Shown here one piece after another: positions 23,697-40,629 of a stretch of DNA of 64,000 nucleotides; within the stretch, counting starts at the first letter, position 1; every line of letters begins with the position of its first letter. The stretch spans positions 186,001 to 250,000 of the forward strand of contig JAFQOT010000013.1 in the NCBI GenBank assembly GCA_017403065.1, given 5' to 3'. A program made the position numbers and the translations under genes. The DNA is from Clostridia bacterium (GTDB taxonomy: Bacteria; Bacillota; Clostridia; Oscillospirales; Acutalibacteraceae). Under the pieces are notes generated by a model that did not search any database, was not told where the DNA came from, and was given only the letters and a program-made list of their open reading frames with translations.

Positions 23697-23771
23697 GGTG
23701 GATGTAGCTTAGTTGGTTAAAGCGCCAGTTTGTGGCACTGGAGACCGTGGGTTCGAGTCCCATCTTCCACC
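23697..23771 (+). tRNA. tRNA-His (GTG)
   Basis: Cloverleaf with anticodon loop TTGTGGC, anticodon GTG. The 5' end has the extra G(-1) opposite C73 that is diagnostic for histidine tRNA. The T-arm is GTGGG-TTCGAGT-CCCAT. CCA is not encoded. Confidence 0.95.
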
Positions 23772-24062: not shown

Positions 24063-24134
24063 TGGGGTGTCGTCAAGCGGTAAGACACAGCACTTTGACT
24101 GCTGCATGCGTAGGTTCGAATCCTGCCACCCCAG
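24063..24134 (+). tRNA. tRNA-Gln (TTG)
   Basis: Complete cloverleaf: acceptor TGGGGTG/CACCCCA with discriminator G, anticodon loop CTTTGAC (anticodon TTG), T-arm GTAGG-TTCGAAT-CCTGC. CCA is not encoded. Confidence 0.96.
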
Positions 24135-26531: not shown

Positions 26532-26690
26532 ACCTGCTCACTTTCCTTAAGTATTTATAGTTTACTATCGCTTCTCTATTTGTGCAATAATACATATCAC
26601 TATAATTAGCAACTTTATTACAAAAAACTTCAAGCTTTAAAATATAAGTCTAAATCATTTAATAACCGTGGGTTTTGTATTTTAAAACTG

Positions 26691-26881
26691 GTCCCGCACT
26701 GCCGTAATGTGCTTAAGATAACCTAGCAAAAAGCCAGGTGGGTTCCGGCCGCGTGGCTTCGCGCTCCCTTCTTCCGAACTCGGCACAGCCGCGGGAGGTC
26801 TGCATACCCGCCACACGAGCTTAGGTCCCAAAAATAATGTTGTAGGGTTATATAAGTCACGGTCCGCGAACAGCGCAGGAA
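26691..26881 (-). ncRNA. ssrS: 6S RNA
   Basis: About 190-nt RNA on the minus strand. Its ends close in an 11-bp helix (TCCTGCGCTG at the 5' end with CAGTGCGGGA at the 3' end). The 5' arm GTTCGCGGACCGTGAC followed by AACCCTAC, and the 3' arm with ACCCACCTGG and CTAGGTT, match the flanks of the central bubble known from Firmicutes 6S RNAs. The middle forms a long G+C-rich rod. 6S RNA mimics an open promoter and binds housekeeping RNA polymerase in stationary phase. SRP RNA was considered because of a TTCGGAAG segment but the overall fold fits 6S better. Confidence 0.82.
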
Positions 26882-26895
26882 CTTTTTAAAACATA

Positions 26896-27207
26896 TTATT
26901 TGTCTTCAATTTCGAAAAAGTTTTCTAAACGGTCAACAAAAGCATCGGCAACGAATTCATATTCATCGTCATCCTCAATTTCGTAATAATACTCACTGCC
27001 ATCTTCCTCGCCAACCTTAACAATAACCAATTCTCCGCTATCGTCAAGCATCTTTTTAGGGTCATCAAAGGTTGGAAGTAGGGCTAAATAACGGCCCTCG
27101 TCGGTTTCAATGGCATCTAAAACCTCGAAGGTATATTCCTTACCGTTATCATCCTCTAATGTTACAATATCAGGATTATACTCGTCTTTCTTTATATCTT
27201 CACTCAT
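26896..27207 (-). CDS. DUF1292 protein
   Basis: Acidic 103-residue protein with the DUF1292 core IVTLEDDNGKEYTFEVLDAI and YLALLP, as in YrzB of B. subtilis. ATG 27207 follows GGGGAGG. It ends 15 bp before the 6S RNA gene on the same strand, so read-through into 6S or a promoter inside its 3' end is likely. No biochemical role is established for the family. Confidence 0.88.
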   Translation of the reverse strand: MSEDIKKDEYNPDIVTLEDDNGKEYTFEVLDAIETDEGRYLALLPTFDDPKKMLDDSGELVIVKVGEEDGSEYYYEIEDDDEYEFVADAFVDRLENFFEIEDK

Positions 27208-27287: not shown

Positions 27288-29168
27288 TTAAAAGCTTTTA
27301 TTTTTTTCATACTCTATAACACGTCTGAACTGTGTTTCGTATAATTCACGGTAACCCTTACTGCATTCAAGAAGTTGGTCGTGACTGCCCGTCTGAGTGA
27401 TTTCGCCGTTTTCTAAAAGCATTATTTTATCTGCCGCCATTACTGTAGACAAACGGTGGGCAATAACAATACTTGTACGGTTTTCCATCACCCTGTCAAG
27501 CGCTGATTGAATTAAGCTTTCAGAAACCGAATCCAAAGACGAAGTGGCTTCATCGAGAATAAGTATTTTAGGATTTTTTAAAATTACCCTGGCAATAGAA
27601 ACACGTTGCTTTTCGCCGCCCGAAAGCTTTAATCCGCGATTACCCACAATAGTATCGAATCCGTCAGGCAGACCTGTAATAAAATCATAAATATTAGCCA
27701 CTCTGCAAGCCTCTTCAATTTCTTCTTTTGTGGCATCAGGCTTTGCATATAACAAATTTTCAAGAATTGTTCCGTTGAAAAGATATGTGTCCTGTGTGAC
27801 AGTACCAATATTAGTCCTTAAATAATTCAAATCATAATTCCTGACATCCTCACCTGCAACCATAACCGAGCCGTCTATAACATCATAAAGTCTTGGAATA
27901 AGGCCTATAATGGTAGATTTGCCTGCTCCCGATGTGCCAACTATAGCATACATTTTTCCGTCGGGAACATAAAAGCTCACATTTTTAAGCACACTCTTTG
28001 TTTCTTCATAGTAAAATTTAACATTCTTAAACTCTACACTTGCATTATCAAGAGATGGTTTAACTGGATTTTCAGGATTTTCAATTTCGCATTTTCGGTC
28101 AAGATATTCAAAAATTCTTGTAAACAATGCCAACGACCTTACAAAGCTCACTTCTATATCCAATAACTGTCTTACAGGCTGATAAAGGCGGTTCACCAAA
28201 GCAACCACAACTGTAATATCCCCTACCGTTAAACCTTTATCTATTTTGCCGATAATTAAAAATCCCCCTGCAAAATAAATCATCAACGGAGCAATTTGTA
28301 TAAACATTCCAAGCACTACATGAAACCAGCTGCCTGCCCTATGCTCACGAATTGTAATTTTGGTTGTTTCTTCATTTATGCTTCTGAACTTTTCGTACTC
28401 GGTTTTTTCTTTAGTAAAAAGTTTTACAAGCATTGAACCGCTTACAGAAAGAGTTTCGTTTATATGCTGATTCAGCTCATCCTGTTTTTCCTGAGCAAGA
28501 GAAACCAATTCCCAACGCTTTTTACCCACCTGTTTCGTAGGCAAAATCAGTGCAGGAAGAACAAGTAATCCTACAATAGCCAGACGCCAATCGGTATAAA
28601 ACAAATAAAATACACTGCTTGCCACCGTTAAGGTATTGCTTACAAGAGAAGTAAGAGTTCCTGATATAACAGTGCTTACACCGTTTATGTCGCTGTTCAT
28701 TCGGGTTATGATGTCACCCTGTTTTTCATTTGTAAAGAAGGAATGTGGCATATGCTGTAAATGGTCATACATTTCATTTCGCATATCATAAATAATCCTT
28801 TGGGAAATCCAAGAATTTATATACTGCTCTAAAACCATTATAACCTGTGATGATGCCAAAACTCCAAAGGCGATTAACACGAGCTTTAAAAGGTCATTTA
28901 TTTCACTACTGCCATCACTTATAGCGTCAACAATCCTACCTGTTATAACCGATGGGAACAACCCTAAAACTGCTGATAATGATATTGCAATAAATACTAA
29001 TAAAAAATGCCATTTGTACGGCAGCAGATACCTTACAATTCTTTTCGAAAGACCCTTTGTAAGCTTGGGCTTGTTTTGCTTTTCTTCCTCAGTCAAAAAT
29101 CCCCGCGGACCTCCGGGAAGTCTCATAGGTCCTCGCATACCTGCAGGAGGAGGATTCATAGGTCTCAT
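27288..29168 (-). CDS. ABC exporter, fused membrane and ATPase domains
   Basis: Half-transporter of the MsbA/LmrA-like type, expected to work as a homodimer in export of lipids, drugs or peptides. The six-helix membrane domain covers about residues 50-340. The ATPase has Walker A GTSGAGKST, the signature LSGGEKQR, Walker B ILILDEATSSLD and the H-loop IAHR. ATG 29168 is preferred over TTG 29204. A peculiar cytoplasmic N-terminus rich in Pro, Met, Gly and Arg (MRPMNPPPAGMRGPMRLPGG) precedes the first helix. Its substrate cannot be predicted. It is divergent from the orphan transcript at 29242. Confidence 0.93.
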   Translation of the reverse strand: MRPMNPPPAGMRGPMRLPGGPRGFLTEEEKQNKPKLTKGLSKRIVRYLLPYKWHFLLVFIAISLSAVLGLFPSVITGRIVDAISDGSSEINDLLKLVLIAFGVLASSQVIMVLEQYINSWISQRIIYDMRNEMYDHLQHMPHSFFTNEKQGDIITRMNSDINGVSTVISGTLTSLVSNTLTVASSVFYLFYTDWRLAIVGLLVLPALILPTKQVGKKRWELVSLAQEKQDELNQHINETLSVSGSMLVKLFTKEKTEYEKFRSINEETTKITIREHRAGSWFHVVLGMFIQIAPLMIYFAGGFLIIGKIDKGLTVGDITVVVALVNRLYQPVRQLLDIEVSFVRSLALFTRIFEYLDRKCEIENPENPVKPSLDNASVEFKNVKFYYEETKSVLKNVSFYVPDGKMYAIVGTSGAGKSTIIGLIPRLYDVIDGSVMVAGEDVRNYDLNYLRTNIGTVTQDTYLFNGTILENLLYAKPDATKEEIEEACRVANIYDFITGLPDGFDTIVGNRGLKLSGGEKQRVSIARVILKNPKILILDEATSSLDSVSESLIQSALDRVMENRTSIVIAHRLSTVMAADKIMLLENGEITQTGSHDQLLECSKGYRELYETQFRRVIEYEKNKSF

Positions 29169-29241
29169 AATATTTCGCTTCTTTCTAAATATTCTATTTA
29201 ACAAGTTTTAAACATTTTTCACAAAAGTTTTAAACTTTTTG

Positions 29242-29270
29242 TTGACAAACTGTGTAATATGCATTATAAT
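29242..29270 (+). promoter_or_regulatory. Perfect consensus sigma-A promoter of an orphan transcript
   Basis: TTGACA (29242-29247), 17-bp spacer, TATAAT (29265-29270). The predicted start is near 29277. It drives the region with tiny ORFs that ends at the terminator 29691-29721. Confidence 0.9.
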
Positions 29271-29302
29271 AAAGACAGAAAGAGAGAGGAGGAGTTAGAA
29301 AA

Positions 29303-29341
29303 ATGAAAAATGAAACTCCACCAGCACATTTTATAAAATAA
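29303..29341 (+). CDS. Possible 12-residue leader peptide
   Basis: MKNETPPAHFIK begins at an ATG placed 8 nt after a strong GGAGGAG ribosome site, directly behind the perfect promoter at 29242. The strength of both signals argues that it is translated. The peptide matches no leader I recognise, and no structural gene follows it in the same transcript. Confidence 0.45.
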   Translation: MKNETPPAHFIK

Positions 29342-29690
29342 CTTGAAAGTAGTGAGTCCAATGAAGTAATCAATTAAACTCAGACAAAAAATAATGATTG
29401 GTGAGTCCAATGAAATAGTTATTTTGATTTAGTTATTCCCCTCGGGGCGTTTAAATAAATACCAAATGGTGATTTTATGATTGTTAGGAGACACGTTTCT
29501 AAATAAACTGTAAAGGTGATTCCAATGTACAATTTAAAAAGTTAACCGATTAAATTTTGTTTAAAGCGTATTAAAGTAATTAACTTTTTTCCAAAGTAAA
29601 AATTAGAGATAATATCATTGCTTCCGCATTAACGGAATGTATAAAATTTAGTTGGTTTTAAATCACAAAACTAAATATATTAAAATCTAA

Positions 29691-29721
29691 AACTCCTGTG
29701 AGTAATTCACAGGAGTTTTTT
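29691..29721. terminator. Terminator of the orphan transcript
   Basis: AACTCCTGTG pairs with CACAGGAGTT followed by a T run on the plus strand; the A run on the other side also allows it to serve the minus-strand gene ending at 29730. Confidence 0.9.
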
Positions 29722-29729
29722 GTTATGTA

Positions 29730-30278
29730 TTAGTCCAAGCTGTAATCCTTAAGCTTTCCGCAATACACAGTTTTTGCGTCAGGAATTTTTGTAAAACTCA
29801 TAGGGTGAACTATTCCCTCAAGCTCTTTAGAGCCGTCAATATCAAAGCTTACAAGCATTTCCCTTACAAATTCAGAACAATAGTACCTGTTTTTCATTTT
29901 GATACATATGTTAAAAACAGCGAGCCACAGACCAAAATAATTATACCTATAATTTTTCTTTTGTGAAATCATCTGTTCAAGCTTACGGCACATACCAAAA
30001 TATTTTTCACCGCTCACATCAATAGACAAGACCTTAACCTTGGTATTGTTAAAACGCTTAAATGTGCCGAAATTTTTAGATTCTGTAACAAAGCCGGCCC
30101 AAAAGGGATTATAGGCATTTAATCTTCCAAAGGAATACATAACACTTAAATCATCAACGAAGCTAAGAGAAGCATGATTATATTCGGCGCCGGTAAACAT
30201 TTTAAGTAATTTTGAAAGAATTGTTCCAGTTTGACTTATAACAATATAAATTTGCTTCTGGTCATCAACATTTGTCAT
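29730..30278 (-). CDS. Permuted papain-fold (YiiX/YebB-like) amidase
   Basis: Protein of 182 residues resembling the circularly permuted NlpC/P60 group: a histidine in AEYNHASLSF (about residue 34) comes before the cysteine in RYYCSEFVREML (about residue 137). Such enzymes cleave amide or ester bonds in peptidoglycan or lipids. There is no signal peptide, so it may act in the cytoplasm or on the spore. It is monocistronic and sits upstream of, and divergent from, cotJA. Substrate is unknown. Confidence 0.75.
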   Translation of the reverse strand: MTNVDDQKQIYIVISQTGTILSKLLKMFTGAEYNHASLSFVDDLSVMYSFGRLNAYNPFWAGFVTESKNFGTFKRFNNTKVKVLSIDVSGEKYFGMCRKLEQMISQKKNYRYNYFGLWLAVFNICIKMKNRYYCSEFVREMLVSFDIDGSKELEGIVHPMSFTKIPDAKTVYCGKLKDYSLD

Positions 30279-30429: not shown

Positions 30430-30696
30430 ATGGAAAAGAGTCTGCGTGACATTGCTAATATGCTTAAACAAACCGAAATGATGACTCCAGAAGGCTTGCA
30501 CTGTACTGCTACTGACTGCAATAAAAATAATTACTGCAACGCGCCTACACCCAGAAGCCTAACAGGTGGAATTTTAACAATGGCTTTTGTAGATATGCAA
30601 CCCTTAAATGAAGTGTATGAGCTTGATGAAGCATTCAAAAACGGAACCTTGTTCCCCAATATAAACAAACCGTTTTTAGGAGGACGCAAAAGATGA
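30430..30696 (+). CDS. cotJA: Spore coat protein CotJA
   Basis: First gene of cotJABC, 88 residues, with the family core AFVDMQPLNEVYELDEAFKN followed by GTLFPNINKPF. It associates with CotJC in the spore coat. AGAGGAG precedes ATG 30430. Its stop overlaps the start of cotJB (ATGA type), so the operon is translationally coupled. It would normally be expressed in the mother cell under sigma-E. Confidence 0.93.
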   Translation: MEKSLRDIANMLKQTEMMTPEGLHCTATDCNKNNYCNAPTPRSLTGGILTMAFVDMQPLNEVYELDEAFKNGTLFPNINKPFLGGRKR

Positions 30697-30953
30697 AAAA
30701 ACAATTAAAGAAAAAAATTTTTCAGGTAGATTTTGCCATACACGAGCTTTCGCTTTATTTAGATACGCATCCTACCTCGAAAAAAGCTATGGAACTGCTA
30801 CGGGAATACAGAAAATTACGTTCCCAGCTTATAAATGAATATGAAAGACAATTCGGAGATTATATTGTAACAACCGACGACGTATCCGCAACAGGCTGTT
30901 GGGAATGGTTAGAAAACCCATGGCCTTGGGAAATCAATTTTATGGAGGATTAA
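30693..30953 (+). CDS. cotJB: Spore coat protein CotJB
   Basis: 86 residues with the family pattern VDFAIHELSLYLDTHPTSKK and the C-terminal WEWLENPWPWE. It overlaps cotJA by 4 nt and is 3 bp ahead of cotJC. Its role is in coat assembly together with CotJC; no enzymatic function is known. Confidence 0.93.
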   Translation: MKKQLKKKIFQVDFAIHELSLYLDTHPTSKKAMELLREYRKLRSQLINEYERQFGDYIVTTDDVSATGCWEWLENPWPWEINFMED

Positions 30954-30956
30954 GCA

Positions 30957-31586
30957 ATGTGGAAATATGAGAAAAAATTACAATATCCCGTTAATATCAA
31001 AAACCCAAATCCTAAATATGCGCAAATAATAATTTCCCAATATGGTGGTCCTGACGGTGAGTTAGGTGCTTCTATGCGTTATTTAACCCAGCGCTATGGT
31101 CAACCCTTTAACGAAGTTAAAGGAATATTAACTGATGTGGGAACTGAAGAACTTGCCCATTTAGAAATGGTATGCGCTATGGTTCATCAGCTTACCCGCA
31201 ACTTGAGTGAAAAAGAAATTGTAGAAAGTGGCTTTGACAAATACTTTGTCGACCACACCAACGCAGTTTACCCCGTTGCTGCAGCAGGTATACCCTGGCG
31301 TGCTGAATATATTGCCGCAAAAGGCGACGTTTTGGCCGACCTACACGAAGATTTGGCGGCAGAACAAAAAGCAAGGGTTACCTACGACAACCTTATTCGC
31401 TTAATTGATGACCCCGATATACTCGACCCGCTAAAATTTTTAAGAGAAAGAGAAATAGTTCACTACCAACGCTTCGGTGAAGCAAACCTAACTCATTCAA
31501 ACAGATTTATAATAGATTACATAGTGGTAGGAAAGGGACTGTCGAAGCACGGCAGTCCCTTTGAAATTGATAGTGAGTCCAATTAA
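30957..31586 (+). CDS. cotJC: CotJC 5' part with foreign C-terminal tail (interrupted gene)
   Basis: Manganese-catalase-like spore coat protein. Residues 1-175 are normal CotJC, beginning MWKYEKKLQYPVNIKN and including DVGTEELAHLEM (metal-binding Glu and His), DLHEDLAAEQKARVTYDNLI and LREREIVHYQRFGEA. After GGTGAAGC at 31476-31483 the frame enters the inserted element and gives an unrelated 34-residue tail ending at the TAA 31584-31586, instead of the conserved LDSK.FYAFNP.FDK ending. That ending is found at 34329-34415. As it stands the product is a 209-residue chimera; after excision it would be 202 residues. Confidence 0.93.
   Translation: MWKYEKKLQYPVNIKNPNPKYAQIIISQYGGPDGELGASMRYLTQRYGQPFNEVKGILTDVGTEELAHLEMVCAMVHQLTRNLSEKEIVESGFDKYFVDHTNAVYPVAAAGIPWRAEYIAAKGDVLADLHEDLAAEQKARVTYDNLIRLIDDPDILDPLKFLREREIVHYQRFGEANLTHSNRFIIDYIVVGKGLSKHGSPFEIDSESN
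31476..31483 (+). repeat. Left attachment core (attL)
   Basis: GGTGAAGC inside cotJC, codons Gly-Glu-Ala. It is one copy of the 8-bp direct repeat flanking the element. Confidence 0.85.
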
Positions 31587-40259: not shown

Positions 40260-40266
40260 ACCCTAA

Positions 40267-40619
40267 GAGTCGGTCAGACGGTTGCGAGATTTTAAAATCT
40301 TGAGGAAAGTCCGAGCCCCACAGGGCAGAATAGCGGCTAACGGCCGCCGAGGGTGACCTTAGGGAAAGTGCAACAGAGATATACCGCCGTACCTTTGTAA
40401 TCCGTAATTTGCGTGATTTGTACGGTAAGGGTGGAAAGGCGAGGTAAGAGCTCACCTATCATACGGGAACGTCATGATACTGTAAACCCTATTCGGAGCA
40501 ACGCTAAGTGTAGCTATACATTTGCCCGATGTGCTACGAAAAGCGGCTTGAGCGTAAGGAGCAATCCTACGTCGAGATAGATAACCGTCCGCGACAGAAC
40601 TCGGCTTACCGACCGACTC
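40267..40619 (+). ncRNA. rnpB: RNase P RNA
   Basis: Catalytic RNA that trims tRNA 5' ends. The terminal helix GAGTCGGTC/GACCGACTC closes the molecule. The conserved core is plain: GAGGAAAGTCCGAGCCCC and CAGAACTCGGCTTACCG, plus AGGGTGGAAAGGCG and GTAAACCC. About 353 nt. The J and P regions fit the ancestral type A architecture rather than Bacillus type B, judging by the GTAAACCC segment and its spacing; the type is less certain than the identity. Confidence 0.97.
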
Positions 40620-40629
40620 GTTATAAAAC

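Follow-up and report, generated by a model that had tools for sequence, protein, structure and literature searches.

The locus and its neighborhood

The window, as we call the whole 64,000-nucleotide (nt) stretch of DNA that was analyzed, comes from a 1.24-Mb genome and contains a putative short RNA gene bounded by a sigma-70/sigma-A promoter and an intrinsic terminator (Table 1). The promoter matches the consensus at 12 of 12 positions and ranked first among 27 promoter-like sites within 5 kb (these sites were counted at a looser threshold, at which 17.9 were expected). Transcription presumably starts near 29277. There is no open reading frame (ORF) of 60 or more amino acids (aa) between the promoter and the terminator. 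What the interval does contain is five micro-ORFs, which are 12, 2, 2, 9, and 6 codons long; the two shortest are minigenes reading Met-Lys-stop. The original prediction had named the consensus promoter, the strong terminator, the lack of a normal gene between them, and the five starts with their two AUG-Lys-stop ORFs, and it was right on each, including the exact positions of the starts. It had also described the sites ahead of the starts as Shine-Dalgarno (SD)-like GGAGG or (A/G)GTGA sequences. Such sequences are present, but they are not generic: the starts at 29361, 29410, and 29525 have in common the longer element (A/G)GTGA(G/T)TCCAATG. Below, we call each copy of this element, with its short ORF, a unit.

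TABLE 1 Features of the RNA locus and its surroundings, in window coordinates
Feature	Position	Strand	Sequence or evidence
tRNA	23698–23771		
tRNA	24063–24134		
6S RNA	26687–26884	−	RF00013, 57.2 bits
DUF1292 gene, divergent conserved neighbor	26896–27207	−	Pfam PF06949 and synteny
ABC transporter gene	27288–29204		
Sigma-70/sigma-A promoter	29242–29270	+	−35 TTGACA, 17 nt, −10 TATAAT
ORF1, 12 codons	29303–29341	+	MKNETPPAHFIK; SD GGAGG at 29288–29292
Unit 1, Met-Lys-stop (ATG at 29361)	29351–29369	+	AGTGAGTCC-A-ATG AAG TAA; element copy AGTGAGTCCAATGAAG
Unit 2, Met-Lys-stop (ATG at 29410)	29400–29418	+	GGTGAGTCC-A-ATG AAA TAG; element copy GGTGAGTCCAATGAAA
Short hairpin ahead of the ORF2 ribosome-binding site (RBS)	29437–29448	+	CCCCTCGGGG; by eye, weak
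ORF2, 9 codons (ATG at 29477)	29468–29506	+	MIVRRHVSK; RBS GGTGAT
Unit 3, MYNLKS (ATG at 29525)	29515–29545	+	GGTGATTCC-A-ATG TAC AAT TTA AAA AGT TAA; element copy GGTGATTCCAATGTAC
Intrinsic terminator	29689–29719	+	14 pairs and T tail
182-aa protein gene	29730–30278	−	No Pfam match
CotJA and Mn-catalase/CotJC-type genes	30430–31586	+	Spore-coat type cluster
RNase P RNA, class A	40266–40624	+	

In the window the ABC transporter gene lies between the RNA locus and the DUF1292 gene, and the 6S RNA directly adjoins the latter. On the other side, the gene for the 182-aa protein is convergent to the RNA, and a homologue of it occupies the same place in only one further locus (L010). The spore-coat type cluster stands beside the RNA in this 1.24-Mb genome.

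Conservation of the locus

A DNA search found clear homologues in most of 36 congeners. The arrangement recurs in about 34 of them, always behind a promoter of its own, as well as in further genera of the order, and because of this conservation we consider it to be beyond chance. The order of the elements in the 34 genus loci is promoter, ORF1 (if present), units, ORF2 (if present), and last unit. The comparative evidence thus supports the original prediction of an orphan transcript of micro-ORFs that include minimal AUG-X-stop minigenes. The divergent upstream neighbor was a DUF1292 gene in 13 of the 34 loci and an ABC transporter gene in 12 (together, 25 of 34).

Looser versions of the locus, up to about 1.2 kb long, adjoin DUF1292 genes in many genera belonging to two families of the order; the RNAs of these relatives are longer (0.5 to 1.2 kb). 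Two or more units were present in the region divergent from DUF1292 at 22 of 60 loci from the two families versus 0 of 180 control regions. Five loci from other genera (L050, L054, L061, L064, and L075) have RNAs of 0.9 to 1.2 kb, in which ORF1 is longer and blocks made up of ORF2 and a unit without the ATG are duplicated. A 6S RNA also lies in four of these loci (L050, L054, L061, and L075).

Of 394 genomes of the order, 10 contained a pattern of two units and 2 matched the reversed pattern used as a control; two of the 10 matches (L047 and L048) resemble GC-rich coding sequence. About 370 genomes from across the class gave no match beyond the order; note that this strict pattern misses most divergent members. 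Viral contigs gave 10 two-unit matches, all in repetitive, coding-like sequence without the context of a ribosome site. When named genomes were scanned, the matches were in metagenome-assembled genomes (MAGs) of uncultured Oscillospiraceae, Ruminococcus, and Clostridia from the guts of ruminants, horse, and rabbit, and for this reason the order carrying the RNA is probably Oscillospirales. Further matches in GC-rich genomes and in Lactobacillus are likely due to chance.

Searches of Rfam at both gathering and lax thresholds returned only chance matches of the terminator type, and we found no published description of such an RNA in the open-access literature searched. The window RNA including its terminator had a folding z score of −3.03; without the terminator, the values were mostly within about 2 standard deviations of those for shuffled sequences. 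RNAalifold found no consensus fold in the gappy genus alignment, in which little is conserved beyond the micro-ORFs, and no hairpin is common to the units. The original prediction had proposed to seek conserved starts and structure in relatives; the starts were found. A weak TTCC...GGAA hairpin can be seen by eye ahead of the ORF2 RBS in several relatives.

Sequence and spacing of the start-stop units

The sequence GTGANNCCRATG has five matches in the whole genome, three of which are at the RNA locus. The fourth, GAAAGGTGATTCCAATG, is a gene start (L038, near position 1500; G000:C1:35952); the gene resembles one for an iron-type alcohol dehydrogenase. Since GAAAGGTGATTCCAATG begins an ordinary gene, the element is able to act as an initiation site, and it is possible that this gene is coregulated with the units of the RNA. 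Outside the locus, the unit sequence GGTGAGTCCRATG serves once as a gene start in this genome. The ordinary genes of the window mostly have other RBSs.

Each unit consists of an SD sequence (AAAGG, GGAG, or GGTG), TGAGTCCR, and ATG, with about 8 nt from the SD to the ATG, a normal distance. Within the genus, 59 of 77 unit ATGs were closed by a stop within three codons versus 18.5 expected (maximum, 35 in 1,000 shuffles); outside the genus, the value was 34 of 54 versus 11.2 expected (maximum, 20 in 500 shuffles). Because the sequences are related by descent, these shuffle tests overstate the significance, but the figures agree in direction across separate lineages. The second codon of the minigenes varies (Lys, Tyr, Asn, His, Arg, Glu, Gly, and others), and only unit 1 has mostly AAG at this position.

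In about one-third of the distinct units (61 of 182), CCN or AAR replaces the ATG, and yet GTGAGTCC is retained; hence, the element must do more than support AUG initiation. In these non-ATG units, the SD and TGAGTCC are kept, an NTG is in frame, and a stop comes early: in the NTG frame, 50 of the 61 have a stop within six codons, compared with 16 and 37 in the two remaining frames. They may either start at the NTG within (G)TGAGTCC, which would possibly give peptides of the form M-S-P-(M/K/P)...stop, or bind the 30S subunit without an AUG. Among ATG units outside the genus, the NTG was missing in 28 of 84, and the difference between the two classes was not significant (P = 0.20).

The predicted duplexes with the 16S rRNA tail had energies of −14.1 kcal/mol for ATG units and −14.8 kcal/mol for non-ATG units versus −7.9 kcal/mol for the RBSs of window genes and −3.5 kcal/mol for random sites, so that the predicted pairing is about twice as strong as that of ordinary RBSs. 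The tail used was the standard Clostridia sequence; a search of the genus MAGs recovered no 16S 3′ end. The pairing is bulged, GGTGA-n-TCC, not perfect, because of the conserved extra nucleotide in GTGA-N-TCC. As the units were picked by motif, the comparison speaks to the strength of pairing and not to pairing as the selected function.

The predicted micropeptides

ORF1 encodes an acidic, Pro-rich peptide with the pattern M(K/R)x(E/D)xPP(A/E)...K. In pairwise comparisons of 21 distinct cores, the Pro-Pro codons differed 249 times, each time by a synonymous third-position change (0 nonsynonymous). The first Pro codon ends in A or G throughout, consistent with additional pairing to the SD region; by eye, the ACTCCACC codons could pair with that region (ACTCC/GGAGT). 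The distance from the ORF1 stop to the ATG is mostly 16 to 21 nt, and in the window unit 1 follows at 19 nt.

ORF2 encodes a basic peptide of 9 to 13 aa with the consensus M-I/K-x-V-R....K. In most congeners it has 9 codons and ends AAA TAA. Its residues vary: there were 104 synonymous and 711 nonsynonymous pairwise differences in frame versus 71 and 764, and 37 and 761, in the shifted frames. For this reason the case for coding is weaker for ORF2 than for ORF1, and it is built on constancy of start, length, ending, and position. The next ATG was 18 to 20 nt past the ORF2 stop in 20 of 20 cases (18 nt for unit 3 in the window). Outside the genus, ORF2-like basic micropeptides end 9 to 10 nt ahead of the unit NTG in 30 of 38 cases, equal to the geometry in the genus, and they look homologous to ORF2. 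Overall, the comparative evidence favors translation.

Possible functions

We tentatively propose, at a probability of about 0.4 for the whole statement, that the locus is an orphan, ribosome-engaging micro-ORF RNA gene of gut Clostridia that has been inherited vertically beside DUF1292 in one order. Comparison of the sequences supports a conserved transcription unit, a translation signature, a fixed geometry, and an extended complementarity to the 16S tail; ribosome holding and any effect in trans or physiological role are inferred. The working parts of such an RNA, about 0.3 to 1.2 kb long, would be micro-ORFs whose ribosome-binding sites are very strong. Ribosomes would load, translate 2 to 12 codons, and terminate, with the next initiation site 18 to 20 nt past the longer ORFs. 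Through its repeated 30S-binding and start-stop units, the RNA would retain ribosomes or 30S subunits, and ribosomes that terminate at one unit may be handed on to the following one. Such retention could protect and pace the RNA. At high expression the RNA could titrate initiation capacity, although very high expression would be needed to affect the cell's ribosome pool. Separate roles are possible for the two longer micropeptides. We rank ribosome engagement first because the units, and not the peptides, occur at every locus compared.

Of the origins that had been suggested for the transcript, regulatory small RNA and new small-peptide locus both stand. It is unlikely, but deserves weight, that the RNA is a polycistronic micropeptide mRNA whose products are ORF1 and ORF2, with the minigenes as spacing or coupling devices. 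The conservation of ORF1 at the codon level and the recurrence of ORF2-like peptides across genera are what such an mRNA would show, but the differences in ORF2 are mostly nonsynonymous, and the minigenes, which are the most conserved and often the most numerous parts, encode only 1 or 2 residues past Met. In addition, some loci (L033, L044, L046, and L057) are missing ORF1 or ORF2 and still have units. We think it improbable that the RNA is a sponge, in which repeats of GGTGAGTCC titrate an RNA-binding protein or another RNA and the ORFs are secondary. A short motif repeated with variable spacers, which persists without the ATG in the 61 units described above, would suit a sponge; the absence of a shared hairpin or fold would not, and a sponge predicts neither the start-stop closure, nor the fixed stop-to-start spacing, nor the synonymous Pro codons. 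CsrA was found in 0 of 23 genus genomes searched, so the RNA is no CsrA sponge, and we rejected that candidate.

Still less probable is that the start-stop units mainly shield the RNA from endonucleases and that its activity lies elsewhere, for example, in the 3′ part. Strong ribosome-binding sites are distributed along the RNA, and there is a precedent in the axe-txe minigene (see below), but no separate conserved active part was seen in the genus alignment. The original prediction had also considered a ribosome-sensing leader separated from its gene, and had allowed for simple decay. Micro-ORFs and a terminator, both present here, are typical of leaders. However, 31 of the 34 congeners have a terminator downstream of the final unit, and no downstream gene recurs among the 34 loci (at most three have one in common); the gene that follows in the window is convergent. 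None of the homologous regions in dozens of relatives contains a normal, intact gene, which refutes decay. A leader or attenuator of a neighboring gene, or the remains of a gene, is therefore very improbable.

Whatever its function, the novelty is in the architecture of the RNA gene. In a major group of gut bacteria, a conserved RNA gene has apparently been overlooked because none of its parts reaches the length at which genes are called. If it does engage ribosomes, we know of no earlier dedicated RNA that consists of start-stop units, and it would offer a natural setting for the study of initiation, termination, and reinitiation at fixed distances. If it is a micropeptide mRNA, it adds peptides of 9 to 25 residues that are conserved across genera. 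It is possible, if somewhat doubtful, that it represents a new kind of RNA gene acting on the translation machinery across the order: an extended-SD start-stop array with 30S capture or ribosome relay and embedded micropeptides.

Comparison with known systems

No RNA gene known to us consists of a start-stop array of this kind. RNAs of the GOLLD, ROOL, and OLE type are large and have a conserved, stable secondary structure; the folding results that bear on this comparison are given above. The sponge RNAs CsrB and CsrC, whose known partner is CsrA, are similar in being orphan RNAs in which a short G-rich motif is repeated many times; they differ in that the genus here lacks CsrA and the units are translation starts and not GGA motifs presented in hairpins. 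The dual-function small RNAs SgrS and RNAIII, which have one short ORF each, are likewise orphan transcripts with their own terminators that encode a small peptide (translation here is judged from the codon signature). To our knowledge, no dual-function small RNA has a start-stop minigene array at fixed stop-to-start spacing.

Minigenes provide further parallels. The two-codon ORF mg2 of axe-txe, which was proposed to protect its RNA in cis from endonucleases (PMC8708949), resembles the RNA here in that the distance to the next cistron matters, but mg2 acts in cis on the toxin gene, whereas this RNA lacks a recurrent downstream gene. In a title cited in PMC8012679, inhibition by lambda bar is attributed to accumulation of peptidyl-tRNA and starvation for tRNA. 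The original analogy to lambda bar holds for the form, as both lambda bar-type minigenes and the units have an AUG, one or two sense codons (AUG-X-stop in lambda bar), and a stop behind a strong SD. It does not extend to a fixed second codon or to trapping of one tRNA; because the second codon is not fixed, sequestering one tRNA is unlikely to be the common purpose. Minigenes of this type would be expected to cause accumulation of peptidyl-tRNA or toxicity when Pth is limiting; Pth was present in 20 of 20 genomes searched, which is compatible with either outcome. Compared with lambda bar, the RNA described here has several units in one dedicated, vertically inherited RNA gene, and these units combine variable second codons with the extended conserved spacer TGAGTCCR.
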